Of a DNA stretch of 38,157 nt, positions 14,330 through 35,181 are shown piece by piece. The position numbers were made by a program, and so were the translations under genes. The stretch is from a virus. The notes under the pieces were generated by a model. That model made no database searches. It saw only the letters and a program-made list of their open reading frames with translations, and was not told the DNA's origin. The stretch lies in the IMG/VR virus record IMGVR_UViG_3300050821_001791, positions 1 through 38,157 of that record, one strand, 5' to 3'. Position 1 is the first letter of the stretch. Each line of letters begins with the position of its first letter.

Positions 14330-14539
14330 ATGGATTGGTTTAAGAGCAAAGAAGAAGAAGACCAAAAGAAAGCAGAGGAATTAGGGTTTGCTGATACGAC
14401 AGAGCGGCGCATTCATGACATTGGAAAACCCAAACCGCCTGAACCTAAATCCGAAACGCTCTGCGTTGTCGAAGGCTGTCAGAACGGAAAGGCATTGGGT
14501 CAGAATTATGTCTGTACGGATCACATAAGGACAAATTAA
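14330..14539 (+). CDS. Small zinc-binding protein before the portal
   Basis: 69 residues from ATG 14330. A highly charged N-terminus (KSKEEEDQKKAEELGF), a Lys/Pro linker, then CVVEGCQNGKALG and YVCTDHIRTN, a Cys-Cys-Cys-His zinc site. It overlaps the portal start as TAATG. The function is unknown. Confidence 0.6.
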   Translation: MDWFKSKEEEDQKKAEELGFADTTERRIHDIGKPKPPEPKSETLCVVEGCQNGKALGQNYVCTDHIRTN

Positions 14540-19269: not shown

Positions 19270-20091
19270 ATGCGAATCAGCGTTATAACGCCTGTTTTAA
19301 ATGAGAATCCTTGGATCGGCTATTCAATAATGGCCGCTTTACCTTATGTTCATGAGTTTGTGTATGCCCTTGATGAAAAATCGAATGATGGAACGCGAGA
19401 ACTTTTGGATTATATTCGCCATCGTTATGCGTTTGAGAAGCTAAAAGTAATCGAATATCCAACGTTTCATCCTTCTAATATGAAGGCCTATAACGGTGCT
19501 TTTAATCTTTGTATTGGGCAATCGACAGGGGATGCCTGTTGGTTTTTACATCCAGACATGCTGATTACGAAATGGAGTGACTCAAAACCTGGGCCACTGG
19601 CGTGGTATACGAACGTGAGCAGTTTCGCTGGAGACTTTCAAACCAAGATCGTGAAAGGGCGGTGTGATAAATGGAAAAACATCCACGCAAAGAAGTTCGG
19701 GTTGCATTATGCGGGTGGATATGGATCTCAAAACGAGGATTTCTATCATTCGGCTATAACAGGGACAAGTTATCGGCATTTCGGGACAGACTTCGACAAA
19801 TACCCTTTCGAGGTAGCCAACTCTGGAATTAGCGTGAACCATTATTGCGAACTCAAAAGCTATAAACGCAGACTAGAAAAGATGAGATATTGCTTAAGAA
19901 GTCAGCACCCAACGTTACCAGAAGACATTCTTGATAAAACAGCGATCAATCATCAACGCGTCACTCTTGAAAAGTCGGGATCAGATGGAATGACATACGA
20001 ATACGAAAAATCAAAAGAATCAATACCAGAAATCATTACAAAATATGAGGCTGAATTTTCAGCTTTCAAAAAGGAGCTTGTTCATGGCTAA
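19270..20091 (+). CDS. GT-A-type glycosyltransferase
   Basis: 273 residues. It begins ISVITPVLNENPWI, the usual nucleotide-sugar-binding strand. DEKSNDGTRELLDYI takes the place of the family 2 NDGSxDxT motif, and FLHPDMLI is the likely metal-site loop. It is followed by MCP on one side and a small tail-type gene on the other. No export signal, so it acts in the cytoplasm. Donor and acceptor are unknown; a virion protein or host glycan are both possible. Confidence 0.7.
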   Translation: MRISVITPVLNENPWIGYSIMAALPYVHEFVYALDEKSNDGTRELLDYIRHRYAFEKLKVIEYPTFHPSNMKAYNGAFNLCIGQSTGDACWFLHPDMLITKWSDSKPGPLAWYTNVSSFAGDFQTKIVKGRCDKWKNIHAKKFGLHYAGGYGSQNEDFYHSAITGTSYRHFGTDFDKYPFEVANSGISVNHYCELKSYKRRLEKMRYCLRSQHPTLPEDILDKTAINHQRVTLEKSGSDGMTYEYEKSKESIPEIITKYEAEFSAFKKELVHG

Positions 20092-20317
20092 TCCATTCAT
20101 TGTTACACCGACTCAGTTTGGGTATGACGGAACCAATATTTATATGCAGTTCAACTTGTTTGATGGACTTCACACATTACCACCGATGCAGGCATCTTTT
20201 CCGTCTAATGTAACGGCATCAACGATTACGACTTATTTACAAAATGTAGCGAACAATCAACCAACGCTTCCTGCATCTATTGCGGCATTACTTAACGTTC
20301 CTATTCAAGGACAATAA
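20084..20317 (+). CDS. Small tail-associated protein, paralogue of 32626
   Basis: 77 residues from ATG 20084 with AAGGAG. Its middle (DGTNIYMQFNLFDGLHTLP) and C-terminal half (TYLQNVANNQP) match the gene at 32626 (DGTNIYVEAETFDGLHALP, SYLQTVANNQP) almost position for position and in length. Both copies are followed by a gene for a protein with a signal peptide. Probably a small virion component; no known family was identified. Confidence 0.6.
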   Translation: MANPFIVTPTQFGYDGTNIYMQFNLFDGLHTLPPMQASFPSNVTASTITTYLQNVANNQPTLPASIAALLNVPIQGQ

Positions 20318-20326
20318 GGGGTATAT

Positions 20327-20614
20327 ATGAAAAAAGTTATGTTCTTTGTTCTATTAGCGACAGGGTTATTTTTTATTATTCATAAGGCTCAGGCAGTTCC
20401 TTATGTTTATCAGCCTCAGAATTTTGGGTATTCCAATGTATCGATGTCTACGGGAACATTAGCTCAAGTTATTAATTCTACAGCTCCTACGCTTGGTTAT
20501 GCGATGTGGTGTGGAAATTGTGCGGCCAATGGAAATGCTGGAACTCCTTGCTATTCTACAGGTACAGCCAATTGGGGACAAATGGTTCTTTCTACAGGAA
20601 CTAGGTGTCAGTAA
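20327..20614 (+). CDS. Small secreted protein with signal peptide
   Basis: 95 residues. MKKVMFFVLLATGLFFIIHK then AQA is a clear Sec signal peptide with an AQA cleavage site. The mature part is Thr/Ser/Asn rich with four Cys (MWCGNCAANG, PCYSTG, RCQ), suited to disulfides outside the cytoplasm. No family was recognised. An exported protein between capsid and glycosyltransferase genes is unusual. Confidence 0.65.
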   Translation: MKKVMFFVLLATGLFFIIHKAQAVPYVYQPQNFGYSNVSMSTGTLAQVINSTAPTLGYAMWCGNCAANGNAGTPCYSTGTANWGQMVLSTGTRCQ

Positions 20615-22107
20615 TGAAGCCATTAATTTCGTTCGTTATCCCTGTCTACAAAAAGTCTCCTCAAGTATTCGAGAAGTGCTTAAAGAGCCTTTTCGATATG
20701 AGTTATAAGAATATCGAAGTCATTTGCGTATTTGACGGATTAAACGAAGAACTTCAGAAAGTGGCCGGAAAATATCGGACGCAGTGCGTGGTGATTCCGC
20801 ATGGCGGGGCTCCCAAGGCGCGTAATGAAGGGTTTAAGCACTCCAAGGGTCAATATGTGTCATTCTGGGACGCAGACTGTTACGCCAAGCCCGAAATGGC
20901 GAAACGATGGATTCAAGAATTTGAATCGTCTGGCGCGGATTTCGTTTATAGCGGATACGAGTTTTTAGACAAGGCTGGAACCGTGGCTTCTCATCCGTTT
21001 GATCCTTGGATGCTGACTTGCGGAAATTACATCGCGACGATGTTTCCCATGAAGCGCGAGATATTCCCTGGATTTGATGAGAGCTTAAAAGGAGCCCAGG
21101 ATTGGGATTTATGGCTCACGATTTCCGAAGCGGGGCACGTCGGTTCTTACATCGCTGGCGAAGGTTTTGTAACTGAACCGCCGAGCGCGGATTCCATTTC
21201 AGGGCAAGTGTGGAGCAATGAAAACTATCGCAAGACGTTTGATCTCGTAAAGAAAAAGCATGGCATTCCGACCAGGGATATTGTGATTTGTTCAGAAGAA
21301 GATTCCATTAAAGCATCGCATATTGCGCGACTGATTGGAAACGCTGACTTCCATGTGAATCTCGATCCTCGGCGCGGGGATTATAAGCTTGCCATTTGTT
21401 TAGGCATTAGCTTTGCCAACATTATGGCCTTTGAGAATTTAGGAACCAAGACGAAAAAGGTTCTCTACTGGCGATCAAAAGACATCGAAGCTTTTGAGCA
21501 ATATGGCCTTCTTCCGTCCATAACGCTATTGGAGAAGTTCAAGACCATCATCGACATTCATTATGTCAATGAAATGGTATCGCAGAAGCGTCTTAAGAAG
21601 ATCTTTGATTTCATGGGTTATGAGAAGCCAGAAATCCTGTCTCTTCCTTCGGACATTGAAGACGCTGAGACGAAATTGCCCGAGACGTTTAAGGTGCTTC
21701 TCGATATCGACGAAATGTATATGCCCGTCTTTCGCACAATTAAACAGGATATGCCCTATATCCAAATCGATGATTTGAATTGGAAGACCAACCCAATGGC
21801 AAAGATCGAAGATTATTCGCTTCTTTTGTCTTTCCAGAAGTTCCCGACCGTCAACGAAGGCATCAGGCGGTTCCTCATTAATGGTCGAAACGTGATTTCA
21901 AACGTCGAGGCTCATTATTGCGGGTTCTTTGACATGGCGGTGAATATGAAGGAGTTCAAATCCGAACTCATTAAGCGTATCCGTGAGGCTCGGTCATTGC
22001 CGTTTAATGCTGAAGCTCAGGATTACTATAAGACACAGGTGTCGCCGAGATTATTTGGAGAGAATATCAAATCGTTACTCCCCAAGGAATTGGAGGTCGT
22101 GGCATGA
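20614..22107 (+). CDS. Two-domain glycosyltransferase (GT2 N-terminal domain)
   Basis: 497 residues from ATG 20614 (TAATG overlap). The N-terminal 200 residues are GT2: ISFVIPVYKKSP, VICVFDGLNEEL, KARNEGFKHSKGQYVSFWDA with the DAD metal motif at 86-88, and AQDWDLWL (catalytic Asp region, 161-168). The C-terminal 280 residues look like a second Rossmann-type domain (IVICSEEDSIKASHIARLIG, KKVLYWRSKDIEAFEQYG), possibly a second transferase. The enzyme is cytoplasmic. Donor and acceptor are unknown. Confidence 0.75.
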   Translation: MKPLISFVIPVYKKSPQVFEKCLKSLFDMSYKNIEVICVFDGLNEELQKVAGKYRTQCVVIPHGGAPKARNEGFKHSKGQYVSFWDADCYAKPEMAKRWIQEFESSGADFVYSGYEFLDKAGTVASHPFDPWMLTCGNYIATMFPMKREIFPGFDESLKGAQDWDLWLTISEAGHVGSYIAGEGFVTEPPSADSISGQVWSNENYRKTFDLVKKKHGIPTRDIVICSEEDSIKASHIARLIGNADFHVNLDPRRGDYKLAICLGISFANIMAFENLGTKTKKVLYWRSKDIEAFEQYGLLPSITLLEKFKTIIDIHYVNEMVSQKRLKKIFDFMGYEKPEILSLPSDIEDAETKLPETFKVLLDIDEMYMPVFRTIKQDMPYIQIDDLNWKTNPMAKIEDYSLLLSFQKFPTVNEGIRRFLINGRNVISNVEAHYCGFFDMAVNMKEFKSELIKRIREARSLPFNAEAQDYYKTQVSPRLFGENIKSLLPKELEVVA

Positions 22108-22844
22108 AAACTCCTCGCGCTTCATTTGTCATTCCGGCTTATAACTCAGAGGCTTATTTAGCGCAAGCCATTCTTTCTTGTCGTGAACAATCGGTTAAAG
22201 ACATTGAAATCATTATTGTGAACGATGGATCTACTGATGGAACACAGGAATTAATCGAATGGCACGCGAAAGACGATTCTCGGATCGTTCCCGTTTTAGC
22301 GGATCACAAGGGACGCTCTGCCGCGCGCAATCAAGGGAACGCTATTGCGAAATCGCCTGTTATCCTTGTTTTAGATGCTGATGATATGGCTTGCAAGCAC
22401 CGTGTTCGGGATACGCTTCTTTGTTTTCAGATGAAGAATCCCGATGTGGTCTATGGGCCATTTCAGATTATGGACGAAAACGATAATGTGATTGCGACCC
22501 AGAAAGCCGGAAAAATCGATAAGAAATTATGCTTAGAAACAAAAAAGAATTTTATTGGCCATTCCACGATGGCCTATCGTAAGAATGTGACGCTTAATGT
22601 GCAGTACGACGAAGTGGATTTCTCTAGGCTTGGGTTAGACGATTGGAAGTTCCAATGGGACTGCATTTTAAAGGGCTATAAGTTTGATGTGGTTTCGCCG
22701 TATTTATCGCGTTACCGCATTTACAGTTTACCGAATCAGACCTATGGTTCTCCGACGGAGTTTTTTAGAAATGAAAAAGAAGTTCAAAAGGTGAAGGATG
22801 ACTTTATTGCAAGAATCTCCGACTCTCTCGCGCAGAAAGTCTAA
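22104..22844 (+). CDS. Family 2 glycosyltransferase
   Basis: 246 residues, 4-nt overlap with the previous gene. Canonical GT2: SFVIPAYNSEAYLAQAI, NDGSTDGTQEL (40-50), GRSAARNQGNAIAKS, DADD (91-94) and GLDDWKFQWDCI near the acceptor site. It lacks membrane helices, so it uses a soluble acceptor or works peripherally at the membrane. It forms a coupled set with the transferases on either side. Confidence 0.85.
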   Translation: MKTPRASFVIPAYNSEAYLAQAILSCREQSVKDIEIIIVNDGSTDGTQELIEWHAKDDSRIVPVLADHKGRSAARNQGNAIAKSPVILVLDADDMACKHRVRDTLLCFQMKNPDVVYGPFQIMDENDNVIATQKAGKIDKKLCLETKKNFIGHSTMAYRKNVTLNVQYDEVDFSRLGLDDWKFQWDCILKGYKFDVVSPYLSRYRIYSLPNQTYGSPTEFFRNEKEVQKVKDDFIARISDSLAQKV

Positions 22845-23910
22845 GACGTTTCGGGTCGCCTTTATTGGGACGACCGTTTCTGGAGTTATGAAGTATCGCA
22901 TGGGAAACTTTGCCTGGACGATGCGTAAGTTCCCGAACGTCGAAACGGTGCTTTGGCCATATTCGGCAGGAACGACCATGCAAAACCCGTGGCAGGTGGA
23001 CATGGGGTCTAGGCCAGATGTGATGCAGACCATTGACCATCTCTGCGATATGGCTGATGTGGTCGTCTGGCAGACACTCGATTTCCCGCATTCCTGGGAT
23101 TTGTGGCAGTCAATGAAGTTACGCCATCAAAAGCCGTTCTTAATGGAGCTTGATGATTACGTTTCGGACATTCCTCCCGATCACGATGCTTACGAGCATT
23201 ACAAAGGGACGCGCCATCACATTATCATGGCGCAAATGACTCATTCTGATGGCCTTATTGTCTCTACGCCTTATTTAGCGGAGCAATACAAAGGCCACAA
23301 CTCGAATATCTTCGTTGTTCCCAATAGCATCGACTTTAAGGAATGGAAGACGTTATGGTCGCGTAAACACGACCGAATACGTATTGGGTGGATTGGCGGG
23401 GCCACACATCGCAAAGACTTGGAAATGATCGCTCCTGCCTTAGAAAAGGTTCTTTCGAAATACTACGACCAAGACGTGTGGTTCTATTGCATTCACGGAT
23501 GTCCTGAAATATTCAAGAAATGGGATCATGTCTACCACACAACCAAATGGTCTAATATCAATCTTTATCCTCGGTTCATGAATTCCTTTAAATTCGATAT
23601 TGGTATTGCTCCTCTTGAGGACAATAACTTTAACCGCGGTAAATCGAATCTTCGATGGTTAGAATATTCAGCTCTTAAAATCCCTTCTATTGTTTCTCCT
23701 TTGCCTGATTTTGCGCGTGTCATTGAAGATGGGGTGACAGGTTTTTTAGCTTATACGGAAAAAGATTGGGTGAATCGTCTTTCTCTTTTAATTGAAGCTG
23801 AAGGTCTTAGGCGTGGTATGGGAGAACATGCCCATAAGAAGATCAAAGAAGATTTTAATGTCGTCAAAATATCGCGTGATTACTTGCATATTCTGAAGGG
23901 GTTCGCATGA
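22798..23910 (+). CDS. GT4-type (GT-B fold) glycosyltransferase
   Basis: 370 residues from ATG 22798; the first 47 nt overlap the GT2 gene. The N-terminal domain is divergent (RVAFIGTTVSGVMKYRMGNF). The C-terminal domain has IRIGWIGGATHRKDLEMI, FDIGIAPLEDNNFNRGKSNL and RWLEYSALKIPSIVSPLPDF, the GT4 donor-site E-x7-E region, then EDGVTGFLA. No export signal is present. A retaining transferase with an unknown donor. Confidence 0.85.
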   Translation: MTLLQESPTLSRRKSKTFRVAFIGTTVSGVMKYRMGNFAWTMRKFPNVETVLWPYSAGTTMQNPWQVDMGSRPDVMQTIDHLCDMADVVVWQTLDFPHSWDLWQSMKLRHQKPFLMELDDYVSDIPPDHDAYEHYKGTRHHIIMAQMTHSDGLIVSTPYLAEQYKGHNSNIFVVPNSIDFKEWKTLWSRKHDRIRIGWIGGATHRKDLEMIAPALEKVLSKYYDQDVWFYCIHGCPEIFKKWDHVYHTTKWSNINLYPRFMNSFKFDIGIAPLEDNNFNRGKSNLRWLEYSALKIPSIVSPLPDFARVIEDGVTGFLAYTEKDWVNRLSLLIEAEGLRRGMGEHAHKKIKEDFNVVKISRDYLHILKGFA

Positions 23911-24689
23911 GTTATTTCCCGACCGTTCTTTCTGATTTCCAAACTTATATATCAGGTCTTATTAATGATCCCCAGAATACTCGATATCCTTTAACTCTTA
24001 TTAATAATTTCCTAGATTTGGCTCAGCATCGCTGGAATTCAGAAGCTAAGATTTGCCGATTAACCGACTATGTAGCTTGTACCGCAAATGTGTATCGGTA
24101 TCAACTTTCAACGAATTTAACACTTATGCCGCTTATGATTATGCGCGTAACATGGAAGGGCATACCCCTTATTATCCGTTCAAAAGAATATATGGACAAA
24201 TACTCTTCGATTGATTGGACGACAACCATTGGAACTCCTCAAGAGGTGATGATTGATCTGAATTCCAACAATACAGGTCTTTCTCAGACAGGTCCTTCCA
24301 TCATTCTTCATCCCGTTCCTCAAGCTGGTGATGTTTCGAGCTATACGAATAATGTTGGTATTACGAACCAAAACCCTCTTAGTATTGAATACTTAGCCCC
24401 TCATACCACGATGGTTAATCCAACAGATCAAGCTTTTACAGTTAATGGGACATTCATAAACACATCTATTTTACCGTATGTTGCAGGTTTGGCCTTGGAC
24501 GTTTCGGCTTCTATATTAGAACCAGACCCTACTCCTGAAACAATACAGAAAGCCAAGATTTTTAGGGCACAAGCGAATGCATATTTAAGTCTTGTAATTC
24601 AGATGTATCAAGGTCTAGAGGAAGACGCGCCTCTACGATTCGGGGGCGGAAGGACTGTGCGTCCTTCTGGAATAGCGTCAACTTCTTAA
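23907..24689 (+). CDS. Head-tail adaptor / connector-like protein
   Basis: 260 residues, 4-nt overlap with the transferase upstream. The N-terminal helices FQTYISGLINDPQNTRYPLT and LINNFLDLAQHRWNSEAK are typical of phage adaptor proteins that dock under the portal. A beta-rich centre and a helical C-terminal part (ETIQKAKIFRAQANAYLSLV) follow, ending LRFGGGRTVRPSGI. Position before the large tail protein supports the role. Confidence 0.6.
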   Translation: MSYFPTVLSDFQTYISGLINDPQNTRYPLTLINNFLDLAQHRWNSEAKICRLTDYVACTANVYRYQLSTNLTLMPLMIMRVTWKGIPLIIRSKEYMDKYSSIDWTTTIGTPQEVMIDLNSNNTGLSQTGPSIILHPVPQAGDVSSYTNNVGITNQNPLSIEYLAPHTTMVNPTDQAFTVNGTFINTSILPYVAGLALDVSASILEPDPTPETIQKAKIFRAQANAYLSLVIQMYQGLEEDAPLRFGGGRTVRPSGIASTS

Positions 24690-27232
24690 AGAAAGCAACT
24701 CTTCTCGTATTAGTCCTTTCAGGCTTTGCTAAGGCCGATATTATCGTCAATTCCTTTGGCGGTGGTTTGGATACCATGGACAATCCTGCTGTTATTGATC
24801 CGTCTATGTCCCAAAGCCTATTAAACGTCAATATCCAACCCGGCGGATCAGCCGTCTTTAAACGTGATGGCTATGGGCTATTCGAGGCCCTTCCGTCAGC
24901 TTCTACGGGCCCTATTCATGGCGGATATCATTTTCAACAATCTGGTGGTAGTGACGTTCAGCTATGGGGATCAGATGCCTATTTATCTGGGTCTGTGAGT
25001 GATGCGTCAGCTGTTAAGCTTGCTACGGGAACAATAGGAGCAACGTGGCAATGTGCTGATTCTCAAGGGTTTGCCTATTGTTTTAGTTCTAGTCACGATA
25101 CACCTATTCAAACAGATGGAACTGTAGCTAATACGATCTATTTTTCTAGTGCTCCTTCTGGAACCATGGCCACTTTTACGCCGCTACAGCTTGTCGTGGC
25201 CGGAGTATCAGGAAATACTAATACTCTCTATATTTCAGCACAAAACAATTTCGCTAATTTTAATATTGGAATTCTTCCTTCAAGCTCTTTTGTCTATCCG
25301 ATTGCCGCTCCTGGTTCTCGTATTACGCATATTGCCTACTATTTTGGTAGGTTATTTTGGTGGAAAGATCAAAGTTTTGGATATGTAACTTTCACCAATC
25401 AAAACGACCCACAAGTCACCATTGTGTCAAACCAGATTGGGACACTGGATAATTCAGATGCCTTTTGGAATTCTAGTGGATTTGATGCTGGTACGATGTT
25501 TTCAGGAAGTCAGCAAGCCAACGCCAACGCAAGTCCTGGTGGGATCTTCTTTCGTGGGCAAGATAATCATTTTTATGTTTATGATGGGTATTATTTGACA
25601 CGTCTCAGTCGTCCTATCACTCCTACAGTACAGTTATCAAACCGAAGAAAAGCCAATTCATGGACACAAACAACAGCCACTGATTTTTCAGGTGGAAGTT
25701 CTTATGCTACGTATACCGACACTACAACGGTTCCTGGGCTTATACAACCGACTAATTTCACGGATTATTTCAATAACCTTGGAAATTGGAACAATGTAAG
25801 TGGAGTATGGACGGCCACTAATAATCAGGCGATTGCTAATGCAACATCAGTTTCAAGAACAGCAGAAGATTATAGCGATGTTCCAGGGCAGAGTAACATA
25901 AACCTAACCTCTTGGGACTTGTTTTCTTCGATGCATTTTGGAAGCACTAATTTAGGGGGAGATCAGGTCGAAGTTGATTATGTAGATTCTGGCTTTAATG
26001 GATATGGAATTCTTTATACGCTTGATATTGCGGGATCTCTTCTCTATGCTCAAATTATACGGCTTACTAACCACATTTATACAGCCATTAGTGCACAAAC
26101 CACAATATCCGCAGGGTTACCATATAACAATCATACATTTGATTTAAAAAGAACAGCAGGTGGAGTTTTTAGCTTATATGTCGATGGAAGCGTAATTGCT
26201 TCATCTGCAACGGATACGACATATACAGGAGTGAGTCGTGCTGATCTTCTTTATAACTATCAGGGAGGAGCCAATGGTTCATTTATTTTCAATCTATTTT
26301 CTATAGCTTCTGCGTCATCGACATACTATTCAGCTGTTAATAACGCTCCGAACATAACCACATGGGGAAGTTTTAACGCAACAACATTTAACTTCGGAGG
26401 AACACAGAACTTTCAGGTTCGAGCTTCGACAGGAAGTATCGCTGTTTCAGCATCTACTCCGTCATGGGTGAATCAGACGAATGGTGCTACGGTTCAAGCA
26501 TCGACTGGGACTTATATGCAAATGTCCGACACTTTTATATCGACATCGACCGCCTATACTGGACAAGTTCCGACGCTTAATGATTTCACTTTTAATTGGT
26601 TTGAAGGAACCGCCTCTGATAAATGTTATATCTCCTATTTTAATGATGCTATTTGGTTCTCGGTTTCAGCGGGAACGACGACATCAACCAACAATGAAAT
26701 ATTTTATTGGGATCTTTTAAATGGAGCTTGGTTGGTTTATAACATCCCATCCAATGGATTTCTAATTGAGAATAACACGCTTTATTTTGGAAGTCCGACA
26801 AATAACAACATCTATAAATTTGGCGGTGTTTCTTCGGATAATGGAGCGCCCATTAATTCTTACTGGCGATCAAAAGCATTTCTTGGTAATCAAACCTCAG
26901 AAAGTTCAAGCAATGGAACGTCTTTGACATTTGCCGCTACCGATGATCTCTTTGTCCAAAAGGAGTTCGTTCAATCTGACTTTATATTAGGTGAATCCTC
27001 AACGACTTTAACTTATACGTACACGCTTGATTCTAGTACATCGACCACTTTTAATATGAATTCCTATAGCGCAACCTCATCGCTCGTTCAGCGCAACTTC
27101 CTTTTACCTGTTGGAAAGATTGGTAAATACTATGACTTTTCAATCGGAGACAATTCTATTAACCCGAAATGGGTTTTTATGGGGCACCGAGTGAAATATA
27201 ACCCACTTAACTGGAGGCCAGTCCTTCAGTGA
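24686..27232 (+). CDS. Large beta-rich tail (nozzle-like) protein with signal peptide; start codon unclear
   Basis: About 849 residues. The frame opens at LKKATLLVLVLSGFAKA-D, a signal peptide with an AKA cleavage site, but there is no ATG, GTG or TTG before TTG 24767, which lies inside the mature part. Then come DPSMSQSLLNVNIQPGGSAV and FKRDGYGLF, as in beta-propeller tail-tube proteins, and near residue 350-520 a concanavalin/LamG-like insert (NLGNWNNVSGVWTATNNQ, FDLKRTAGGVFSLYVDG). The end (FSIGDNSINPKWVFMGHRVK) resembles tail-tip proteins. TTA could be a non-standard start, the frame could be reached by a frameshift, or a base may be wrong. Confidence 0.65.
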   Translation, partial: LKKATLLVLVLSGFAKADIIVNSFGGGLDTMDNPAVIDPSMSQSLLNVNIQPGGSAVFKRDGYGLFEALPSASTGPIHGGYHFQQSGGSDVQLWGSDAYLSGSVSDASAVKLATGTIGATWQCADSQGFAYCFSSSHDTPIQTDGTVANTIYFSSAPSGTMATFTPLQLVVAGVSGNTNTLYISAQNNFANFNIGILPSSSFVYPIAAPGSRITHIAYYFGRLFWWKDQSFGYVTFTNQNDPQVTIVSNQIGTLDNSDAFWNSSGFDAGTMFSGSQQANANASPGGIFFRGQDNHFYVYDGYYLTRLSRPITPTVQLSNRRKANSWTQTTATDFSGGSSYATYTDTTTVPGLIQPTNFTDYFNNLGNWNNVSGVWTATNNQAIANATSVSRTAEDYSDVPGQSNINLTSWDLFSSMHFGSTNLGGDQVEVDYVDSGFNGYGILYTLDIAGSLLYAQIIRLTNHIYTAISAQTTISAGLPYNNHTFDLKRTAGGVFSLYVDGSVIASSATDTTYTGVSRADLLYNYQGGANGSFIFNLFSIASASSTYYSAVNNAPNITTWGSFNATTFNFGGTQNFQVRASTGSIAVSASTPSWVNQTNGATVQASTGTYMQMSDTFISTSTAYTGQVPTLNDFTFNWFEGTASDKCYISYFNDAIWFSVSAGTTTSTNNEIFYWDLLNGAWLVYNIPSNGFLIENNTLYFGSPTNNNIYKFGGVSSDNGAPINSYWRSKAFLGNQTSESSSNGTSLTFAATDDLFVQKEFVQSDFILGESSTTLTYTYTLDSSTSTTFNMNSYSATSSLVQRNFLLPVGKIGKYYDFSIGDNSINPKWVFMGHRVKYNPLNWRPVLQ

Positions 27233-27801
27233 AAAAGTGCTTAGTCTTAATTTTTGTTTTACCTTCCATTGCCATGGGGATTGCTTGTCCTCAGTATACT
27301 TATCCACAAATACCAGGTCTTGATCAGGATATGAATAATATCTGTCATAACATTTCAAATCCAGTCCTTAATTCGGTTAGTGGAATACCACTCGGTAAGA
27401 TTGTTCAATATATAACATCAACGAATTCTTCAAATACAGCCACGTTATCAACATCTTATGTAAGTACCGCATTAACCGCAAACATTACACCTATGTATTC
27501 AACAAGCCATATACTTATTTTGGCAAGTGGTGAACTTGTTGCGACGGATAGCGGCGGAGATGCTCAGGCGGCACTTTTTAATGGAACAACGAACCTTTTC
27601 GGAGGAACAACTGCAATGTGTGATGCGCATTCAAGTGGAGGATCATCTTATGGCGGTTGCACGATGATATGGATGGATTTTCCGGCCTCAACTACACCCC
27701 AAACCTATACCGTAAAAGTTAGAGATACGAATGCTGCATCCCAGGCAATCTGGGGAACTTCAACAGAGCAATTCATTATTCTTGTGGAGGTAACGCCTTA
27801 A
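27229..27801 (+). CDS. Secreted beta-rich protein with signal peptide
   Basis: 190 residues from GTG 27229 (GTGA overlap, GGAGG upstream). VKKCLVLIFVLPSIAMGIAC is a signal peptide; a Cys near the end of the hydrophobic core could be a lipidation site, but the lipobox is poor. The mature part is Thr/Ser/Asn rich (ILILASGELVATDSGGDAQA, GGCTMIWMDFPAS, YTVKVRDTNAASQAIWGT), resembling the jelly-roll repeats of tail-fibre tips. Probably a virion-associated or exported protein. Confidence 0.65.
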   Translation: MKKCLVLIFVLPSIAMGIACPQYTYPQIPGLDQDMNNICHNISNPVLNSVSGIPLGKIVQYITSTNSSNTATLSTSYVSTALTANITPMYSTSHILILASGELVATDSGGDAQAALFNGTTNLFGGTTAMCDAHSSGGSSYGGCTMIWMDFPASTTPQTYTVKVRDTNAASQAIWGTSTEQFIILVEVTP

Positions 27802-28049
27802 TGCCCATTACTCAGATTCAGCTTGGATCAGCTACTACGACATTACAACAACTTCAACAGCAATGCGATGCGTTATCTGATCTTGTCGCTAATGCGAATG
27901 TCTATTATCAGAACGGATGGACGATTAATGTTGCAGTGGGAAACAATCAACTAACAGTTCCTATCCCATTAGCTACGCAATCGTCTATGGTTACGCAATA
28001 CGACACAATGAAAGCGAATTTAGTTAGCTTATTTAATCAGCTTCCGTAG
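27801..28049 (+). CDS. Small tail-associated protein
   Basis: 82 residues, TAATG overlap. TTTLQQLQQQCDALSDLVAN forms a helix, followed by WTINVAVGNNQLTVPIP and a C-terminal helix. It occupies a place like the 77-residue paralogues at 20084 and 32626, next to a signal-peptide gene, but sequence similarity to them is not clear. The function is unknown. Confidence 0.55.
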   Translation: MPITQIQLGSATTTLQQLQQQCDALSDLVANANVYYQNGWTINVAVGNNQLTVPIPLATQSSMVTQYDTMKANLVSLFNQLP

Positions 28050-28057
28050 GAGGAATT

Positions 28058-29254
28058 ATGGTAAGTGGATCAGGAGCAGTAAAGGGAGCAGAATACGGAT
28101 CAGTAGTTCCTTTTCTTGGAACATCTATTGGAGCGGCTGTAGGTGGTCTATTTGGTGGTGGAGGGGACAAAAACAATGTGGCAGGAAAACTTGCGGCCTG
28201 GGCCCAACCTACATTAGGGTCTTTTTCTGGGTCTAATATTCTTCCTGTTCCAGTAGGTCAAACTCCACTTACTTCGCTTCCTGCTTGGGGTGGAGCTGGA
28301 GGGTCAGGGACAGCGGCCAATGCTCAGGCGGCGGCAGATTTTGCGGCTATGGCTGGTCGCAACCCAACAGCAGAAGAACTTTCTCAATTGGTTCCGTCTT
28401 ATTTATCGGGCGATGCTAATATCTTAAACGAGACAGCAGGACGTGCACAATTATCAGCTTATTTAACCCAGCAACAACAAACACCTCAGAATATCTACAA
28501 CCAACAGCAACAGCAATTACAACAGCAGTATACGACCAATCAAAAAACAATTGATCCTCAAGTCTCTCAAACATTTCAATCTCTTTTGGGACGTGCGCCA
28601 ACGTCGGCAGAAGCTCAGTATTACGGAACTCTTATGGCTTCTGGTCAAGATCAGTACCAGATTCAGCAGGCTTTACAGCAAACCCAAGAATATCAAAACG
28701 TTCAGAACACGAACTTCCAGAATCAATTGCAAGGACAGCTTCAGCAAAGCAACTCAACTTATTTTAATCAGTATATTGCTCCTCAAATTGCGTCTACTAA
28801 TGCGCTTAATGGTGGCACACAAGGTAATTCAGGCTATCAATCTCAGCTCGCTAATGCGGCTCTTCAACAAAATCAGGGACTTCAACAGTTTTTGGGAGGA
28901 GTTACTGCTCAGAATTATCAAAATTCTACAGCGAATGCAACGAACCAATATAACCAACTTCTAGGCCAACAGTATGGTCTTCAAAATGCGGGTGTATCAA
29001 ATCAATTATCAAATCAGGCAAGTAATCAATCATATAACCAGCAATTAAGTCTCTATCAGATGCAACAACAGGCCTATAGTAACTATCTCAATAACTATGG
29101 AAAAACGAATGGTTTAAATAGTGTTCTTCAAGGGGCAATCGGAGGAGCCAGTGCGGGATCTAAATTCGGACCTTATGGCGCTATTTTTGGAGGTCTAGGT
29201 GGTGGAGTATTAGGTGGAGCTTCAGCCGCTTCTAGTGGAAACGCATACTTTTAG
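28058..29254 (+). CDS. Gln-rich internal virion / DNA ejection-like protein
   Basis: 398 residues with AGGAGG. Glycine-zipper segments at both ends (LGTSIGAAVGGLFGGGG; AIGGASAGSKFGPYGAIFGG) can insert in membranes. The middle is Gln/Asn rich with two DUF4214-like motifs (AGRNPTAEELSQLVPSYLSG; LLGRAPTSAEAQYYGTLMAS). This layout is common among podovirus ejection proteins that form a channel through the cell envelope. The role is inferred. Confidence 0.6.
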   Translation: MVSGSGAVKGAEYGSVVPFLGTSIGAAVGGLFGGGGDKNNVAGKLAAWAQPTLGSFSGSNILPVPVGQTPLTSLPAWGGAGGSGTAANAQAAADFAAMAGRNPTAEELSQLVPSYLSGDANILNETAGRAQLSAYLTQQQQTPQNIYNQQQQQLQQQYTTNQKTIDPQVSQTFQSLLGRAPTSAEAQYYGTLMASGQDQYQIQQALQQTQEYQNVQNTNFQNQLQGQLQQSNSTYFNQYIAPQIASTNALNGGTQGNSGYQSQLANAALQQNQGLQQFLGGVTAQNYQNSTANATNQYNQLLGQQYGLQNAGVSNQLSNQASNQSYNQQLSLYQMQQQAYSNYLNNYGKTNGLNSVLQGAIGGASAGSKFGPYGAIFGGLGGGVLGGASAASSGNAYF

Positions 29255-29262
29255 GAGATAAT

Positions 29263-30561
29263 ATGGCAGATCAATTCCAGATACCTCAAGCCAGCAGAAA
29301 TCCACCACAGGGGCAACCTATTGTCCCTCCTTATGATCTCATTAATCAGTATTTAAATAGACAAGCCCAAGTCCCACAAATGCTTCCCGATGCGATCAAT
29401 CAGGCGGCAGAATGGAACTTAAATCAACAGAAATTAAAAGCGCAAGCCTTTGAAGCTGGTGGCCCGTATCTTATGAATCAGCTTTATGGAGGAGGTCAGC
29501 AATCACAGCAACAACCTCCTGCACAGATGCCTCAAGTTGGAGCGCAACCGCAACAGCCAACGGGTGATAGCGATACGAATCCAAACCCTACCACTCCTCC
29601 AAACCAAGGACAGACACAAGGTGCGGTGGGTAGTCCTTCTCAGACAAATGGAAATTCTTCTGCTCAGCCATCAGCACAGACGCCTCCTAGTCAACCGCAA
29701 TGGCAACCAGGACAGCCGTTAATGCACCCGACAAGCGGATTACCTCAAACAATTCATGATCACTTAGCCAATAACGGGATCATTCAGCCGGACGCTCAAG
29801 CTCAATATCTTGCCGCGCTCGGTCTTCAACCTAGACAAGCAGGACAATTAGGGGCTATGGGTAAATTCGGTACAAGTGCGCTTCAAGGTCTTAAAACGGT
29901 CGGAGATCTTCAGCAACAGCCCCTTGCCGCTCAGAAGATGCAGAATGATATCGCCATGCAACCTACCGAAGCGGCGATCAAACAGCAACAGTTAGCGAAT
30001 GAACAACAGCAAATTCCACAAGCTAATAAAAAGACAATCGCAGAGGAAGTCAGTAAACAGGGGGCTGATTCTCAGCAGATCAGAGATCTTCAAACACTTG
30101 CTTCGAATCTTCATCAATCTATCGGTAAAGATTTAGGTATGGGTGGAAACCTTAAGGGAAGTCTTTATCAGGCGACGGGTGGCCGTTTTGGATCATCGGA
30201 TGCGGCGGCTATGCAAAATGCAACTATTCCTTTAGCAACTGGCCTAAATACGGTTCTTTCACATAGATTTAATGCCGGAGAGGTAGCGGCTTTAGGGCAA
30301 TCCCTTATTCCTCAGCCCAAAGATACGCCGCAGTATCAACAGCAGAAACTTCAGAACTTAAATAAGCTCTTAAATGTAATGGCAAGCGGTAACGAACAGA
30401 ATGTTAGGAATGTTGCTTCGGCGATAACGAGTGGAGCGATACCAAAAGTAGGGATTCCATCGTCTCAAAATTCAGCGGTTCCTCAAAAAGGACAAGTTTA
30501 TAAAGGGTATGTGTTTTTAGGCGGCGATCCATCACAACAGTCTAGTTGGAAAAAACAATGA
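29263..30561 (+). CDS. Gln/Pro-rich internal virion-like protein
   Basis: 432 residues with AGGAG upstream. A Gln/Pro/Ser-rich, disordered N-terminal third is followed by a helical middle (GSSDAAAMQNATIPLATGLN, then TVLSHRFNAGEVAALG) and a C-terminus with YKGYVFLGGDPSQQSSWKK, a motif repeatedly seen at the C-terminus of phage structural proteins. It lies between two probable ejection proteins. No enzyme motif was seen. Confidence 0.6.
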   Translation: MADQFQIPQASRNPPQGQPIVPPYDLINQYLNRQAQVPQMLPDAINQAAEWNLNQQKLKAQAFEAGGPYLMNQLYGGGQQSQQQPPAQMPQVGAQPQQPTGDSDTNPNPTTPPNQGQTQGAVGSPSQTNGNSSAQPSAQTPPSQPQWQPGQPLMHPTSGLPQTIHDHLANNGIIQPDAQAQYLAALGLQPRQAGQLGAMGKFGTSALQGLKTVGDLQQQPLAAQKMQNDIAMQPTEAAIKQQQLANEQQQIPQANKKTIAEEVSKQGADSQQIRDLQTLASNLHQSIGKDLGMGGNLKGSLYQATGGRFGSSDAAAMQNATIPLATGLNTVLSHRFNAGEVAALGQSLIPQPKDTPQYQQQKLQNLNKLLNVMASGNEQNVRNVASAITSGAIPKVGIPSSQNSAVPQKGQVYKGYVFLGGDPSQQSSWKKQ

Positions 30562-31727
30562 GTGCGCCCTGGGAAGATTTCCAACAGCAATCGGCAGGAC
30601 CTTGGAACGACTTTTATGACTCTGCGCAACCTACGCAAAATCCTCCTTCCGAATCATTAGGACAGACGGTTATGGATTCTGCAAAGCAAGTTCTTTCTGC
30701 TCCTGTAAATGCGGCCAAGAGTTTAACGCCAGAAAATATGTCTCCTTACCTTCCAGCGGCGGGTGCTGTTATAGGATCTGCGTTTGCTCCTGGTCTTGGA
30801 ACGGCGGCAGGAGCAGGATTAGGACAAATCGGAAAAAGAATGGCAGATCTTGCTTATGGTAAAGCACAACCTGGAGATGCTATGAATCCAGGTCAAGAGG
30901 CTATTTCGCCTATGGCTCAAACAGCGGCCCAAGGAATCGCGGAATATCCTCCAGTTCAAAATGCTGTATCAACGGCGGCGAATGCAGTGGGACGCGGGGC
31001 CTCTCGCGTGGGCGAAGCATTAAGCGGAGTCCCTGCTCGCGATATTCAAAATCTTTTCCAGAATCCAGGAACTCTTTTTACGGTAGGGTCAAAAGGAGCG
31101 GCAGGGCAAGCGATAGGAGATGCAAAAGCATTAGCAGGTGTTAATCCTGGAGTGACAGAAGATTCTTCTACCTTTACGCCAGAAAACATATCAAAGGCTC
31201 TAAATGTTAAGAGTACAGGTGAAGACGCTTTAAATGCTATCGCGGCAAACAAGACTGGCACTCCAGAACAATTAGGAGATGCCTTGAAGTATGTCAGCGA
31301 TCAAATAAAAACACGACTTTCAACAGGTCAAGATGCAAGCGAACTAATTAATATACAGAACCATTTAAATAACATGCTTGATCAAGTGGCTCCCGGAGTA
31401 CAGGAAGCACGGCAAGCTTATGCTCCTTTAGCTCAACGAAACAAATTTCTACAACTTGCTCCAGTAAACAAAAATGGAACCGTTTCAAAGGCAAATTTGC
31501 TCTATTTGTCGTCTCTTTTAGGTGGTCTAGGAAGTTCTGTGGGTGGCGTTTCAGGTGCGGCTGAAGCTATTGGAGCAGGAGCAGTAGCAAGGGCTCCTAT
31601 TACGACTGGAGTAGTTACTTCAGGGGCAGGAGCTTTAAATAATTTGCTTTCAAATCCACAAGCAAGACAGGCATTGTTGGCGACTTTGATGTCTAAATAC
31701 GCGGGTCAATCGCAAGGCCAACAATGA
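30558..31727 (+). CDS. Internal virion / ejection-like protein
   Basis: 389 residues from ATG 30558 (ATGA overlap). The N-terminus has APWEDFQ and GPWNDFY, W-[ED]-[DN]-F motifs common in podovirus internal proteins. A glycine-zipper segment (AAGAVIGSAFAPGLGTAAGA, then GLGQIGK) and a second hydrophobic Gly-rich stretch near 310-360 follow, with a helical middle (DQIKTRLSTGQDASELINIQ). Likely to help deliver DNA across the envelope. Confidence 0.6.
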   Translation: MSAPWEDFQQQSAGPWNDFYDSAQPTQNPPSESLGQTVMDSAKQVLSAPVNAAKSLTPENMSPYLPAAGAVIGSAFAPGLGTAAGAGLGQIGKRMADLAYGKAQPGDAMNPGQEAISPMAQTAAQGIAEYPPVQNAVSTAANAVGRGASRVGEALSGVPARDIQNLFQNPGTLFTVGSKGAAGQAIGDAKALAGVNPGVTEDSSTFTPENISKALNVKSTGEDALNAIAANKTGTPEQLGDALKYVSDQIKTRLSTGQDASELINIQNHLNNMLDQVAPGVQEARQAYAPLAQRNKFLQLAPVNKNGTVSKANLLYLSSLLGGLGSSVGGVSGAAEAIGAGAVARAPITTGVVTSGAGALNNLLSNPQARQALLATLMSKYAGQSQGQQ

Positions 31728-31813
31728 ATAACAGGATGAAGAATGGTAGATATTCCATACCTTTTTATACACCTTTTTTTAGAGCATATCAAGGAGGCAA
31801 TAGACCCATATGA
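31724..31813 (+). CDS. 29-residue coupled peptide
   Basis: ATG 31724 overlaps the previous stop and the TGA overlaps the next ATG at 31810, both as ATGA, so it bridges two genes. The sequence is aromatic and basic (GRYSIPFYTPFFRAYQGG). The AAGGAGG inside it serves the next gene. Translation is plausible; the function is unknown. Confidence 0.4.
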   Translation: MNNRMKNGRYSIPFYTPFFRAYQGGNRPI

Positions 31814-32028
31814 AACCACTCGGAAATACGCCTAGTTTCGCACGTAAAGGCATCACAATGCACGATCCATCAGGGACATACCCTACGCTAGGTCAACAAA
31901 ACAGTGCGGCAGGCTTGCCAAAAAGCGCGTCTAATCCAGAAGAAGCCGAAACCGCTAATCCGTTCCCAGAAGCGCAGGCCGGAATACCACAGCCGCAAGA
32001 TCGACTCAAGCAATTTGGGGGTTATTAA
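31810..32028 (+). CDS. Small Pro-rich protein
   Basis: 72 residues, AAGGAGG upstream. Disordered and Pro/Ala/Gln rich (SGTYPTLGQQNSAAGLPKSA), no Cys and no hydrophobic segment. The function is unknown; a minor structural component is likely from position. Confidence 0.55.
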   Translation: MKPLGNTPSFARKGITMHDPSGTYPTLGQQNSAAGLPKSASNPEEAETANPFPEAQAGIPQPQDRLKQFGGY

Positions 32029-32029
32029 G

Positions 32030-32224
32030 ATGGAAAAAACAAGGCAACAGAAGATTGATGATAGGGCTATTACGGAACATAAAGCTGTTGGCGCAGACAA
32101 CCCAGGAGGACAAGACAAGATCGATTCGCAGAGGTTTGTTCCTAACGTTCAAGACCACGCGAACCATCTTCCAAGAAAGTCTGTCATGGGACCCATCGCC
32201 AATCCTTATAAGGAGGAATGCTAA
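32030..32224 (+). CDS. Small charged protein of unknown function
   Basis: 64 residues from ATG 32030, one nucleotide after the previous stop. Polar and Asp/Gln/Lys rich (RQQKIDDRAITEHKAV, KSVMGPIANPYKEEC). No motif was recognised. It is part of a run of five small overlapping genes between ejection and fibre-like genes. Confidence 0.5.
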   Translation: MEKTRQQKIDDRAITEHKAVGADNPGGQDKIDSQRFVPNVQDHANHLPRKSVMGPIANPYKEEC

Positions 32225-32400
32225 TGCCTTGGAATGAGGTCATGAAGAAGTTCGGAGAAGGAAAGCTCCATTCAGGAACCAAGAAAGGGCCGGAAGTGGA
32301 GAACCCGAAACAGGCCGAAGCCATCATGTATTCCGAAAAGAAAGAAGCGCAAGCGGGAAAGAAAGAATATAAGCGCAAGGGGTTTTCTCATGTCGAATGA
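32224..32400 (+). CDS. DUF6496-like small protein
   Basis: 58 residues from ATG 32224 (TAATG overlap, AGGAGG upstream). MKKFGEGKLHSGTKKGPEVE followed by NPKQAEAIMYSEKKEA is the DUF6496 pattern (short FxxGKLxSG, then KQAxAIxxSE). Basic and common in phages. The function is unknown. Confidence 0.65.
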   Translation: MPWNEVMKKFGEGKLHSGTKKGPEVENPKQAEAIMYSEKKEAQAGKKEYKRKGFSHVE

Positions 32401-32626
32401 CGAAGAATCGAACGACGGAAACATGATCGAAGTCCATATCAAGATTCCTAAACCAGAACCCGCTAAGGTTATGATGGTTCATAAAGACTCGCCTACGAAA
32501 GCGGTTGGAGATGCGACTGCTTCTAAGGTGAAAAAGTTCGGGTCGGAACTTGAGAAAGATGCAGTCAATGCGGTTTCTGGATTTAAGCGTAAGGGCTTCT
32601 TTGTTAAGGACAGCCGTTCTTCGTAA
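32390..32626 (+). CDS. Small charged protein, paralogous tail to the preceding gene
   Basis: 78 residues, overlapping the previous gene by 11 nt. Acidic N-terminus (DEESNDGNMIEVHIKI), Lys-rich second half. FKRKGFFVKD near the end echoes YKRKGFSHVE at the end of the previous gene, suggesting a shared C-terminal element or local duplication. The function is unknown. Confidence 0.55.
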   Translation: MSNDEESNDGNMIEVHIKIPKPEPAKVMMVHKDSPTKAVGDATASKVKKFGSELEKDAVNAVSGFKRKGFFVKDSRSS

Positions 32627-32859
32627 TGGCCAATCCGTACCGTATCTTTATTCGAAGTATTTCGACTGATGGAACAAATATCTATGTCGAAGCAGAAACC
32701 TTTGATGGTCTTCATGCTCTACCAGCGATTCGTCCATCTTTTCTAGTTGGAACAACAGCTGCCCAGATTTCATCTTATCTTCAGACTGTAGCGAACAATC
32801 AACCTATCTTAGATCCATCTATTGGAGCATTAGTAGGTTCTTTTATTAATGGTCAATAA
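32626..32859 (+). CDS. Small tail-associated protein, paralogue of 20084
   Basis: 77 residues, TAATG overlap. MANPYRIF, DGTNIYVEAETFDGLHALP and SYLQTVANNQPILDPSIGAL correspond to the gene at 20084 in order and spacing. It overlaps the next gene, which starts with a signal peptide, just as the first copy precedes one. This indicates duplication of a two-gene unit within the structural region. Confidence 0.6.
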   Translation: MANPYRIFIRSISTDGTNIYVEAETFDGLHALPAIRPSFLVGTTAAQISSYLQTVANNQPILDPSIGALVGSFINGQ

Positions 32860-34108
32860 ACTAAAAATACTACTTATCCTTTTCGCCCCTCTTATTGTTA
32901 GAGGGGCCAACTTACAGCCTCAGGCGCAATCTCCTATGACGATAACAGTCCCTCAAAATGGGAACGTTTCAGGAATCACTATAAATCAAAATGACACAAT
33001 CAATAATTCACCAGGGCTTACAGTTAATGGTCCAACACAATTAAATGGAATTTGTACAGGAATCGGATGCGGATCGAGTGGAGGAACTTCCTTGCCTTTT
33101 CCGGCAGGCGCTACGAATTACGCGCAAATTAATCCTTCTTCTCAACAAGTAGGAGCTATTAACGTTCAGAGTTCAACATTCAGTACAGTTCAAGTCACAT
33201 CCAACACTATCCTCTCCGGCGCAACATTTTATCAAGGGGGCCAATTTAATTTATCAGACTTTACAAATGTCTCTTCTAGTATCACATTTACTGATGTGGC
33301 TGGACTTCATAATCCATTACAAGGACTCATTGATATTTTTCTTCAAAATGACTATATCGGAAAACCATTTATTACTATGGGAAGTAATAACCAATCGAAT
33401 CAAATTAAATTTTCCTCTCAATCTCCTCTTGTTTTAGGTTATGGAATGACAGCCGGACAAGAAACCGTTGGAGCCTCTGGGAGCGCAAGTCGTATTACTA
33501 ACTCCAACTCATCGAGTCAATATGTTGATTTTTGGGATGCTCAAACATATTTAACTTTGCAATCCTACAATTTCGGAGCAAATACAGCGATTATTTTTAA
33601 GCCAAATGCTGTTGATACGGTCGATATATCCACCTATGTGGTAGCTATTAAAGGACCACCTTTTCAAATTACTAATCTAACTGCAAATGCATCTATATGT
33701 ACAGATGGATCTAAATATCTAACGAACTCTTGTGGAACAAGTGGTGGTTCTGGAGCAGAACAAACCATAAGCTATCAACCTGGTCTCTTAAGTGCTGTCA
33801 ATGCCACAAAAGGGGTCTTTGGTAAATTCGTTAAAGCATCCACAGTGGACAATATTGAAGGATCAGCAATTACATTTAGTTGCGTGGCAAATCCTACTAT
33901 TACTCTTTACGAATGCGGAACTAGCGCATCATGTTCAGCTAGTCCAACAACAATAGGCACAGTGACTGTAACGTCAGCAGGAACAGTCGTAGATGGAACA
34001 ATATCCAACTCATCTATTATTGCTGGAGATTATATTGCATGGTCTATAACATCAGGAACATGCGCTAGTATTGATATCTCGGCTACTGCTCAAGTCCATG
34101 CTAATTAA
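32849..34108 (+). CDS. Secreted tail-fibre-like protein with signal peptide
   Basis: 419 residues. MVNKLKILLILFAPLIVRGA is a Sec signal peptide. The rest is Asn/Ser/Thr/Gly rich and beta (PGLTVNGPTQLNGICTGIGC, QINPSSQQVGAINVQSSTF, ANASICTDGSKYLTNSCGT), the style of phage tail-fibre shafts. There are several Cys in the mature part, mostly near the C-terminus. A GCCCCTCT/AGAGGGGC hairpin lies in the signal-peptide coding region at 32885-32907. An exported fibre is unusual; a surface-display or adhesin role is possible. Confidence 0.65.
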   Translation: MVNKLKILLILFAPLIVRGANLQPQAQSPMTITVPQNGNVSGITINQNDTINNSPGLTVNGPTQLNGICTGIGCGSSGGTSLPFPAGATNYAQINPSSQQVGAINVQSSTFSTVQVTSNTILSGATFYQGGQFNLSDFTNVSSSITFTDVAGLHNPLQGLIDIFLQNDYIGKPFITMGSNNQSNQIKFSSQSPLVLGYGMTAGQETVGASGSASRITNSNSSSQYVDFWDAQTYLTLQSYNFGANTAIIFKPNAVDTVDISTYVVAIKGPPFQITNLTANASICTDGSKYLTNSCGTSGGSGAEQTISYQPGLLSAVNATKGVFGKFVKASTVDNIEGSAITFSCVANPTITLYECGTSASCSASPTTIGTVTVTSAGTVVDGTISNSSIIAGDYIAWSITSGTCASIDISATAQVHAN

Positions 34109-34117
34109 GGAAAAATT

Positions 34118-34396
34118 ATGAAATCAAAAATTGCAACGTTTTTATTTTTGTTTTTAACTTCTTTTGTTTATGCAACACCACCTCAACAGCCTATGCCTAT
34201 TTATATTGATAATGGCGATGGAACCGTGACTCAGACTAATCAGCAACAGATCATTAATCCGACTATTTTGAATAATCAAATTGTTTTCTTACAAAATCAG
34301 GTTACGACGTTGAATGCTCAGATCGCTACTCTTCAAGTTGAACTTTTAGATATTTATAATCAAGTTCCAGCAATTCAACCTAAGAGTATACAATGA
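34118..34396 (+). CDS. Small secreted coiled-coil protein
   Basis: 92 residues, AAGGA upstream. MKSKIATFLFLFLTSFVYAT is a signal peptide (VYA cleavage). Then comes YIDNGDGTVTQTNQQQ and a coiled coil (NNQIVFLQNQVTTLNAQIAT). It could be a fibre chaperone or trimerisation subunit, or a periplasmic protein; it lies between a fibre-like gene and the lysis genes. Confidence 0.6.
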   Translation: MKSKIATFLFLFLTSFVYATPPQQPMPIYIDNGDGTVTQTNQQQIINPTILNNQIVFLQNQVTTLNAQIATLQVELLDIYNQVPAIQPKSIQ

Positions 34397-34623
34397 CTTT
34401 TCATGAATATCCCGATAGAAGACATACCGACCCTCTTATTAAAGAGTTAATTAAAGAGGTTCAAGGATTCAGAGAAGACATGAAGCCCATACGTTCTTTC
34501 ATGGAAGAAGTGGGGGCCGCTAAGAAAGCAGCTATTTGGCTAGTGGGGATATTTGCAGCGATTGGAGCGGCGATTACTTGGATACTAAACGTCAAAGATC
34601 ATCTCCACAACGGGCATGGATGA
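34393..34623 (+). CDS. Holin-like membrane protein
   Basis: 76 residues, ATGA overlap. An N-terminal charged helix (RRHTDPLIKELIKEVQGFRE) is followed by a single hydrophobic span (AIWLVGIFAAIGAAITWIL) and a short His-rich tail (KDHLHNGHG). This layout is common for XhlA-type lysis-cassette proteins and holins. The role is inferred from position before the peptidase genes. Confidence 0.6.
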   Translation: MTFHEYPDRRHTDPLIKELIKEVQGFREDMKPIRSFMEEVGAAKKAAIWLVGIFAAIGAAITWILNVKDHLHNGHG

Positions 34624-34834
34624 TCCGTCCATTTGGGTATCCACCACCCAATTATGTCGTCTTTGTCTTAAGAGAACACCGAAGCGGGAAAGTGTCATCA
34701 AAAGAAGAGAATGGGGCGGAGATTATCGATTTAAATGCGCGGATGATGACCTCTGCGAATTCACGGACATTTCGCCAAACCTCTGGACAGAAGGCGGGTA
34801 TCCGTCACGGAAAGAAGAAGGGAAGGAGATCTAA
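34616..34834 (+). CDS. Small zinc-ribbon-like protein
   Basis: 72 residues. It overlaps the holin-like gene by 8 nt and the peptidase gene as TAATG. LCRLCLKRTPKRESV and FKCADDDLCEFTDI give two Cys pairs of a ribbon. Acidic and basic patches alternate. The function is unknown; its position in the lysis region is unexplained. Confidence 0.5.
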   Translation: MDDPSIWVSTTQLCRLCLKRTPKRESVIKRREWGGDYRFKCADDDLCEFTDISPNLWTEGGYPSRKEEGKEI

Positions 34835-35181
34835 TGGGAAAATATCAGTACTTTAGTGATGAGGAAGTCGCTGGACTCCAAGATTCAACTTGCCAAAAAC
34901 TTTCGATTGCTCGTGGAATTGCTCAAGTCCCTTTTGTCATTACATGCGGATTGCGTACAGCGGCCCAAAACGCGTCTTTAAGCGAATCTGTACAGGATTC
35001 GGCACATCTGACTGGAAATGGGGTAGATCTGGCCTGTAGTGACAGCCAGACACGCTACGCGATGCTTAAGGGACTATTGGGGGCAGGATTTAACCGTATT
35101 GGAGTATATTCGGCTCATTTACATGCTGATGATAGTCCTACGCTTCCACCGAACGTTTGTTGGTATGTCCAAGGAACATGA
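34834..35181 (+). CDS. M15-family peptidase (endolysin candidate)
   Basis: 115 residues with AAGGAG upstream. VITCGLRTAAQN and DSAHLTGNGVDLACSD supply the zinc ligands His58 and Asp65; AHLHADD supplies His97 with Asp99. This is the compact M15 (VanY/L-alanoyl-D-glutamate peptidase-like) fold used by many phages to cut peptidoglycan stems. No signal peptide, so release depends on a holin. Near-complete for the family. Confidence 0.8.
   Translation: MGKYQYFSDEEVAGLQDSTCQKLSIARGIAQVPFVITCGLRTAAQNASLSESVQDSAHLTGNGVDLACSDSQTRYAMLKGLLGAGFNRIGVYSAHLHADDSPTLPPNVCWYVQGT

Follow-up and report, generated by a model that had tools for sequence, protein, structure and literature searches.

Sequence comparison suggests that an uncultured group of short-tailed phages places export signals on its tail nozzle and tail fibres and leaves head and internal proteins without them, and that the tail is finished outside the cell interior. 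We observe N-termini of the Sec signal peptide (SP) type, their conservation among relatives, a recognizable nozzle, a split between inner and outer virion parts, and a conserved cysteine pair in the nozzle. Tailed-phage assembly is taught as wholly cytoplasmic, and we know of no tailed phage that assembles its nozzle outside the cytoplasm.

The window, that is the whole stretch of DNA analysed here, is the IMG/VR virus record IMGVR_UViG_3300050821_001791 of 38,157 bases. Gene calls, profile matches and gene position give it a gene order of the short-tailed phage type (Table 1).

Table 1. Genes of the window that bear on the export signals, in window coordinates
Feature	Position	Strand	Remarks
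TerL	11724
Portal	14539..16746	+	No SP; inner part, for contrast
Scaffold	17133..18113	+	By position; no SP
Major capsid protein (MCP)	18187..19230	+	phrog_1357, 1.5e-35; no SP
Sugar-transferase cassette with glycosyltransferases	19270-23910		Between capsid and adaptor genes
77-aa protein	20084..20317	+	Immediately upstream of putatively exported gene 20327; paralogue of 32626
Small protein, predicted exported	20327..20614	+	SP MKKVMFFVLLATGLFFIIHKAQA^VPYVY; four mature Cys
Head-tail adaptor	23907..24689	+	By position; no SP; stop codon overlaps start of nozzle SP
Tail nozzle (T7 gp12/P22 gp10-type hub), from structure prediction	24686..27232	+	SP (L)KKATLLVLVLSGFAKA^DIIV; Foldseek matches, single copy, SP in family
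Tail fibre, predicted exported	27229..27801	+	SP MKKCLVLIFVLPSIAMGIA^CPQY; orthologue with Pfam Collar
Three Q/N-rich internal virion/ejection protein candidates (28058, 29263, 30558)	28058..31727	+	No SP, no Cys
77-aa paralogue of 20084	32626..32859	+	Overlaps putatively exported gene 32849
Spike/fibre, predicted exported	32849..34108	+	SP MVNKLKILLILFAPLIVRG^ANLQPQ; 8 mature Cys
Small protein, predicted exported	34118..34396	+	SP MKSKIATFLFLFLTSFVYA^TPPQQ; coiled-coil-like mature part; adjoins lysis genes
Holin-like membrane protein	34393..34623	+	One hydrophobic segment
Endolysin	34834..35181	+	PHROG endolysin families; no SP, no SAR segment

Signal peptides in the window

An earlier note on this DNA had described clear Sec SPs on five genes, at 20327, 24686, 27229, 32849 and 34118, and had proposed SP prediction as a check. 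The prediction agrees for all five, with one correction: codon 24686 is TTA, not a start codon. We used a home-made script that scores n-, h- and c-regions as a stand-in for SignalP; at its cut-off of 11.5 it recovers 11/11 classical Escherichia coli Sec SPs. The five N-termini score 13.1–15.6, while shuffled N-termini reach a score of at least 13 at a rate of 1e-4, and the sole pass among the ∼45 other called genes of the window is a weak one (11.6) from a minus-strand ORF at 36373. The five show the features of Sec type-I SPs, namely a positive n-region, an h-region of 8–15 residues, small residues at −3 and −1, and divergent sequence.

The same scorer found no SP in ∼75 virion proteins of T7, SP6, N4, crAss001, phiKMV, P22 and P-SSP7; the lone match in this control set is crAss001 gp27, annotated as a lysis regulatory protein. 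Chance hydrophobic N-termini were considered and rejected on the shuffles and the control phages. Lipoprotein (Sec/SPII) exclusion proteins such as Llp or Cor were also considered and rejected, there being no canonical lipobox in this set of proteins; a cysteine at +1 occurs only in 27229 and its L001 orthologue, again without a canonical lipobox, and most relatives have Gly, Ala, Ser or Glu there. The Leu/Ile/Val-rich h-regions and predicted cleavage motif would speak against the Gly/Ala-rich uncleaved segment of the SAR/signal-anchor type.

Identity of the proteins predicted to be exported

The earlier note had called some of these proteins tail-fibre-like, a description that holds for 27229 and probably for 32849; 24686 instead encodes the predicted nozzle, and 20327 and 34118 encode small proteins. 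Three observations lead us to identify the 24686 protein, on a structure prediction, as the tail nozzle with the T7 gp12/P22 gp10 fold: Foldseek places podovirus nozzles and hubs at the head of its PDB matches, the gene lies directly behind that of the adaptor, and there is a single copy. An alignment of 22 relatives (A8) yielded a usable AlphaFold model (pLDDT 66.8, core about 85); seven nozzle sequences had given a pLDDT of 31.7. The best PDB matches of this model are nozzle or hub chains of Pa223, Pan3, Carin 1, LME-1, PhiM1, A4, P-SCSP1u, P22 (gp10), Pam1, Sf6, VP1 and T7, at E-values from 2e-11 to 2e-5, with moderate TM-scores and with other beta-propellers coming next at weaker E-values. 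Foldseek against viral models agrees, many of the matches being named P22 gp10. Synteny supports the assignment, in that the gene directly follows the adaptor as T7 gp12 follows gp11, and no second copy occurs in the window. Sequence and profile searches (Pfam, PHROGs) gave no convincing match for the window nozzle, which also had no detectable match in 50,697 phage records or in genome contigs; by hhalign it weakly matches the API480 nozzle in its N-terminal part (E about 0.003), and does not match those of T7, SP6, phiKMV or P22. Within the nozzle, window positions 25690–26330 (about residues 320–530) form a hypervariable insertion between two conserved parts, different in each relative, which is possibly a receptor-facing domain.

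The 27229 protein is, on homology, a tail fibre because one orthologue (L025:9247-9915) carries a Pfam Collar (Phage Tail Collar) domain (E=6.9e-20). That orthologue also matches many tail-fibre PHROGs, and cultured phages have tail fibre or structural proteins that match two further orthologues. Alignments of this post-nozzle gene show that an attachment segment, GPKYxYxDPxLDxEMxNIYHDI, is kept behind the SP and that the C-terminal part is swapped; a search with the attachment domain retrieved only members of its own family. The 32849 protein is likely tail-fibre-like, and an SP (MANKLRSLALVLLGTLAYG^ATLQPE) is found on its 1189-aa orthologue at L006:18177 as well. Pfam and PHROGs gave nothing convincing for this spike or for the small exported-type proteins 20327 and 34118. 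In one relative, Pfam recognises a polysaccharide deacetylase domain (E 7.8e-11) within the exported-type spike (L069:1147-4227).

The two 77-aa proteins of the window (20084 and 32626) belong to a family of which 8 of 11 members are immediately followed by an SP-bearing gene, the other three being near-identical records. This family may be a dedicated partner or chaperone for export or assembly.

Conservation across relatives

Searches with the nozzle and capsid proteins as queries yielded the relatives, and 16 records were read through. Of 23 nozzle records 22 show an SP, the ambiguous one being L151, with 25–63% protein identity for the aligned homologues. In 13 of 14 genomes the gene that follows the nozzle gene also begins with one, the fibre start codons being ordinary and lying directly before the SP, and an SP-bearing protein occupies the spike position in most relatives. 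TerL, portal, scaffold, MCP, adaptor, internal virion proteins and transferases have no SP in the records examined; apparent portal matches in G011–G013 (three near-identical records) are internal start codons and not real. The SP regions average 36% identity, compared to 51% for the first 50 mature residues, and are the lower of the two in 40 of 45 pairs, yet small residues at −1 and −3 persist while the rest of the SP diverges. Divergence with a kept signal-peptidase motif is the pattern of functional SPs, and it separates the outer tail from the inner parts. That the segments might be internal virion hydrophobic domains, an outcome the earlier note had allowed for, looks wrong on this indirect evidence: they are N-terminal, they carry the signal-peptidase motif, and they are absent from internal virion proteins.

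Several of the mature parts contain cysteines, as had been noticed before (four in 20327, three in 24686, four in 27229, eight in 32849 and none in 34118). C106 and C115 of the mature nozzle occur in all 18 N-terminal domains of one alignment, and their conservation is at least 90% in 22; in the AlphaFold model the two residues face each other across strands in a predicted hairpin (104–109/112–117). All four cysteines of 20327 are invariant in four homologues. Two members have the N-terminal pair of 27229, which others lack as a pair. The internal virion proteins and the scaffold have no cysteine at all. Overall, cysteine number is only weakly skewed to even (11 nozzles even, 4 odd), and the window nozzle, with three, is odd. 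The conserved pairs, as seen in alignments and the model, fit export into an oxidising space.

SPs and signal anchors look alike and several of the h-regions are long, features that would also suit N-termini that stay uncleaved, either as membrane anchors tethering nozzle and fibres during assembly or as segments contacting the membrane at infection. We consider this unlikely, given that a short polar c-region with small −1 and −3 residues is kept while the rest diverges, that the same feature recurs on unrelated proteins (nozzle, fibre, spike and small Cys protein), and that the conserved Cys pairs are compatible with export.

The nozzle start codon

The window nozzle has no ATG, GTG or TTG upstream of its SP in frame; the SP-coding stretch is 24686–24736, followed by the mature protein (24737–27229). 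Such a start is likewise missing before the SP in 8 of 23 records in all, namely the window (24566–24776), L002, L003, L004, L005, L006, L032 and L165; in the remaining nozzle records a usable canonical codon (ATG, GTG or TTG) stands at the SP or ahead of it. Near-cognate codons (ATC, ACG, CTG) stand at plausible positions in these eight records, the window having only a GTC at 24677, which is one non-canonical candidate start. Non-AUG initiation, reinitiation and frameshifting are candidate explanations.

The adaptor stop codon falls at the n-region of the SP, and the adaptor and nozzle frames are in −1 register. With the eight records that lack a canonical start, this arrangement would suit a −1 frameshift at the adaptor stop that yields an adaptor–SP–nozzle fusion, the hydrophobic stretch then being an internal cleavable or transmembrane linker. 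We rate this reading as highly improbable: no common slippery heptamer was found by eye, usable starts exist in the other records, and the downstream fibre and spike genes carry SPs behind ordinary starts.

The missing starts also bear on a reading in which the exported copies act off the virion, in surface display, superinfection receptor blocking or as decoys, and a minority of unexported, internally initiated copies builds the tail. Some phages are known to export proteins that block receptors, and an SP-less form is possible, e.g. from TTG 24767 in the window. Initiation there, however, would drop conserved N-terminal residues (DIIVNSFGGG in the window), no internal nozzle start is conserved, the fibre starts are normal and directly precede the SP, and a nozzle is an improbable decoy; we judge this reading quite unlikely. 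The earlier note had left the choice between such display or decoy functions and assembly of outer parts outside the cytoplasm, and the latter is favoured here, with SPs on outer tail proteins only and an exported-type nozzle in single copy; pure decoy or display is a misfit for an essential single-copy nozzle.

Comparison with known systems

Podovirus nozzles and hubs (T7 gp12, P22 gp10, PhiM1, VP1) share the fold, the post-adaptor position and the single copy with the nozzle described here. The nozzles of T7, SP6, phiKMV, P-SSP7, P22, crAss001, API480 and ctQWt234, however, have no SP, whereas the present family nearly always has an SP together with the conserved Cys pair. Neither an SP-bearing nozzle nor tail-protein export in tailed phages turned up in the literature searched, subscription journals lying mostly outside it.

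By sequence, cultured podoviruses also include some with an SP on a tail fibre. BcepC6B gp19 (MKKLIAILLAVPALALG^A...) and Xanthomonas PBR31 orf35 (MKKLIALFSLFCTSAFG^A...) have a clear SP, as the fibre does here; both are annotated as tail fibre or are structural, and their C-terminal domains are related to those of the exported-type fibres of this group. Among the genes checked, the nozzle being covered for PBR31 only, each of these phages has one SP-bearing structural protein, and the PBR31 nozzle has no SP. Our search of the literature on the two phages found no text remarking on the fibre SP.

Podoviridae sp. ctQWt234 (MW202801) has the same gene order, including a sugar cassette between MCP and adaptor, but is a distant relative at about 20% portal and MCP identity; its strong SP is confined to a protein after the nozzle, and the nozzle has none. 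The earlier note had tied the SPs to the glycosyltransferases, a link that is not borne out, since the sugar/transferase cassette sits at the same place in ctQWt234, whose nozzle lacks an SP. In genome contigs, relatives of the capsid protein occur in Clostridia prophages (23–29% identity), which are most likely an outgroup; their large tail-region genes after the capsid gene have no SP, and SP-like matches at the end of these loci look like holins. Among the control phages, the small protein gp44 of P-SSP7 (L192:38376-38738) has a clear SP, and its record already notes a possible signal protein.

Filamentous phage coat proteins are Sec/YidC-inserted and their assembly involves the membrane. 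The filamentous phages thus resemble the proposal made here in having virion proteins with export signals and membrane-involving assembly; in contrast to them, the present phages have TerL, portal, nozzle and an icosahedral capsid protein without SP, and an assembly of the filamentous type is not indicated. Secreted and SAR endolysins (fOg44 Lys44, phiKMV gp45) are phage proteins exported via Sec signals (PMC6116005). Those two are lysis enzymes and not virion parts, and the endolysin of the window has no SP.

A two-compartment assembly model

The nozzle is present in single copy and needed for the tail, and so either its SP goes unused or the tail is completed outside the cytoplasm. We infer export, cleavage, disulfide formation and docking, and lean towards a virion built in two compartments, in which exported, oxidised nozzle and appendages dock on filled heads at lysis. 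In this model the cytoplasm would be the assembly site of the parts made without export signals, namely head, portal, adaptor and internal ejection proteins. The nozzle, fibre 27229, spike 32849 and small protein 20327 would be exported by Sec and then cleaved by signal peptidase I, and their disulfides would form in an oxidising space (for a diderm host, the periplasm). At lysis the holin would open the inner membrane, and DNA-filled heads, closed by portal and adaptor, would meet the waiting nozzle and fibres, which would dock on them and complete the tail. Since the endolysin lacks an SP and a SAR segment, it presumably depends on a canonical large-hole holin; the holes made by canonical holins reach micron scale (PMC6116005), which is why we favour docking at lysis, on heads already filled. 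The wider proposition, that a tailed-phage lineage builds its tail machine (nozzle and appendages) outside the cytoplasm with virion completion coupled to lysis, has in our judgement about an even chance of being right.

If this model is true, some tailed phages split assembly between compartments, their tails gain disulfide stabilisation, and virion completion is tied to lysis timing; moreover, phage tail proteins could sit in the envelope of the infected cell before lysis. Because BcepC6B and PBR31 are in culture, their SP-bearing fibres already open part of the idea to direct laboratory tests.

Other features of the window

Upstream of TerL, the window encodes a DegT/DnrJ-type (sugar) aminotransferase (9940–11085) that is kept in relatives. 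The protein at 8670–9953 has an fn3-like domain and, behind it, a very Gly-rich stretch; the first 130 bases of the window likewise code for a Gly-rich stretch.
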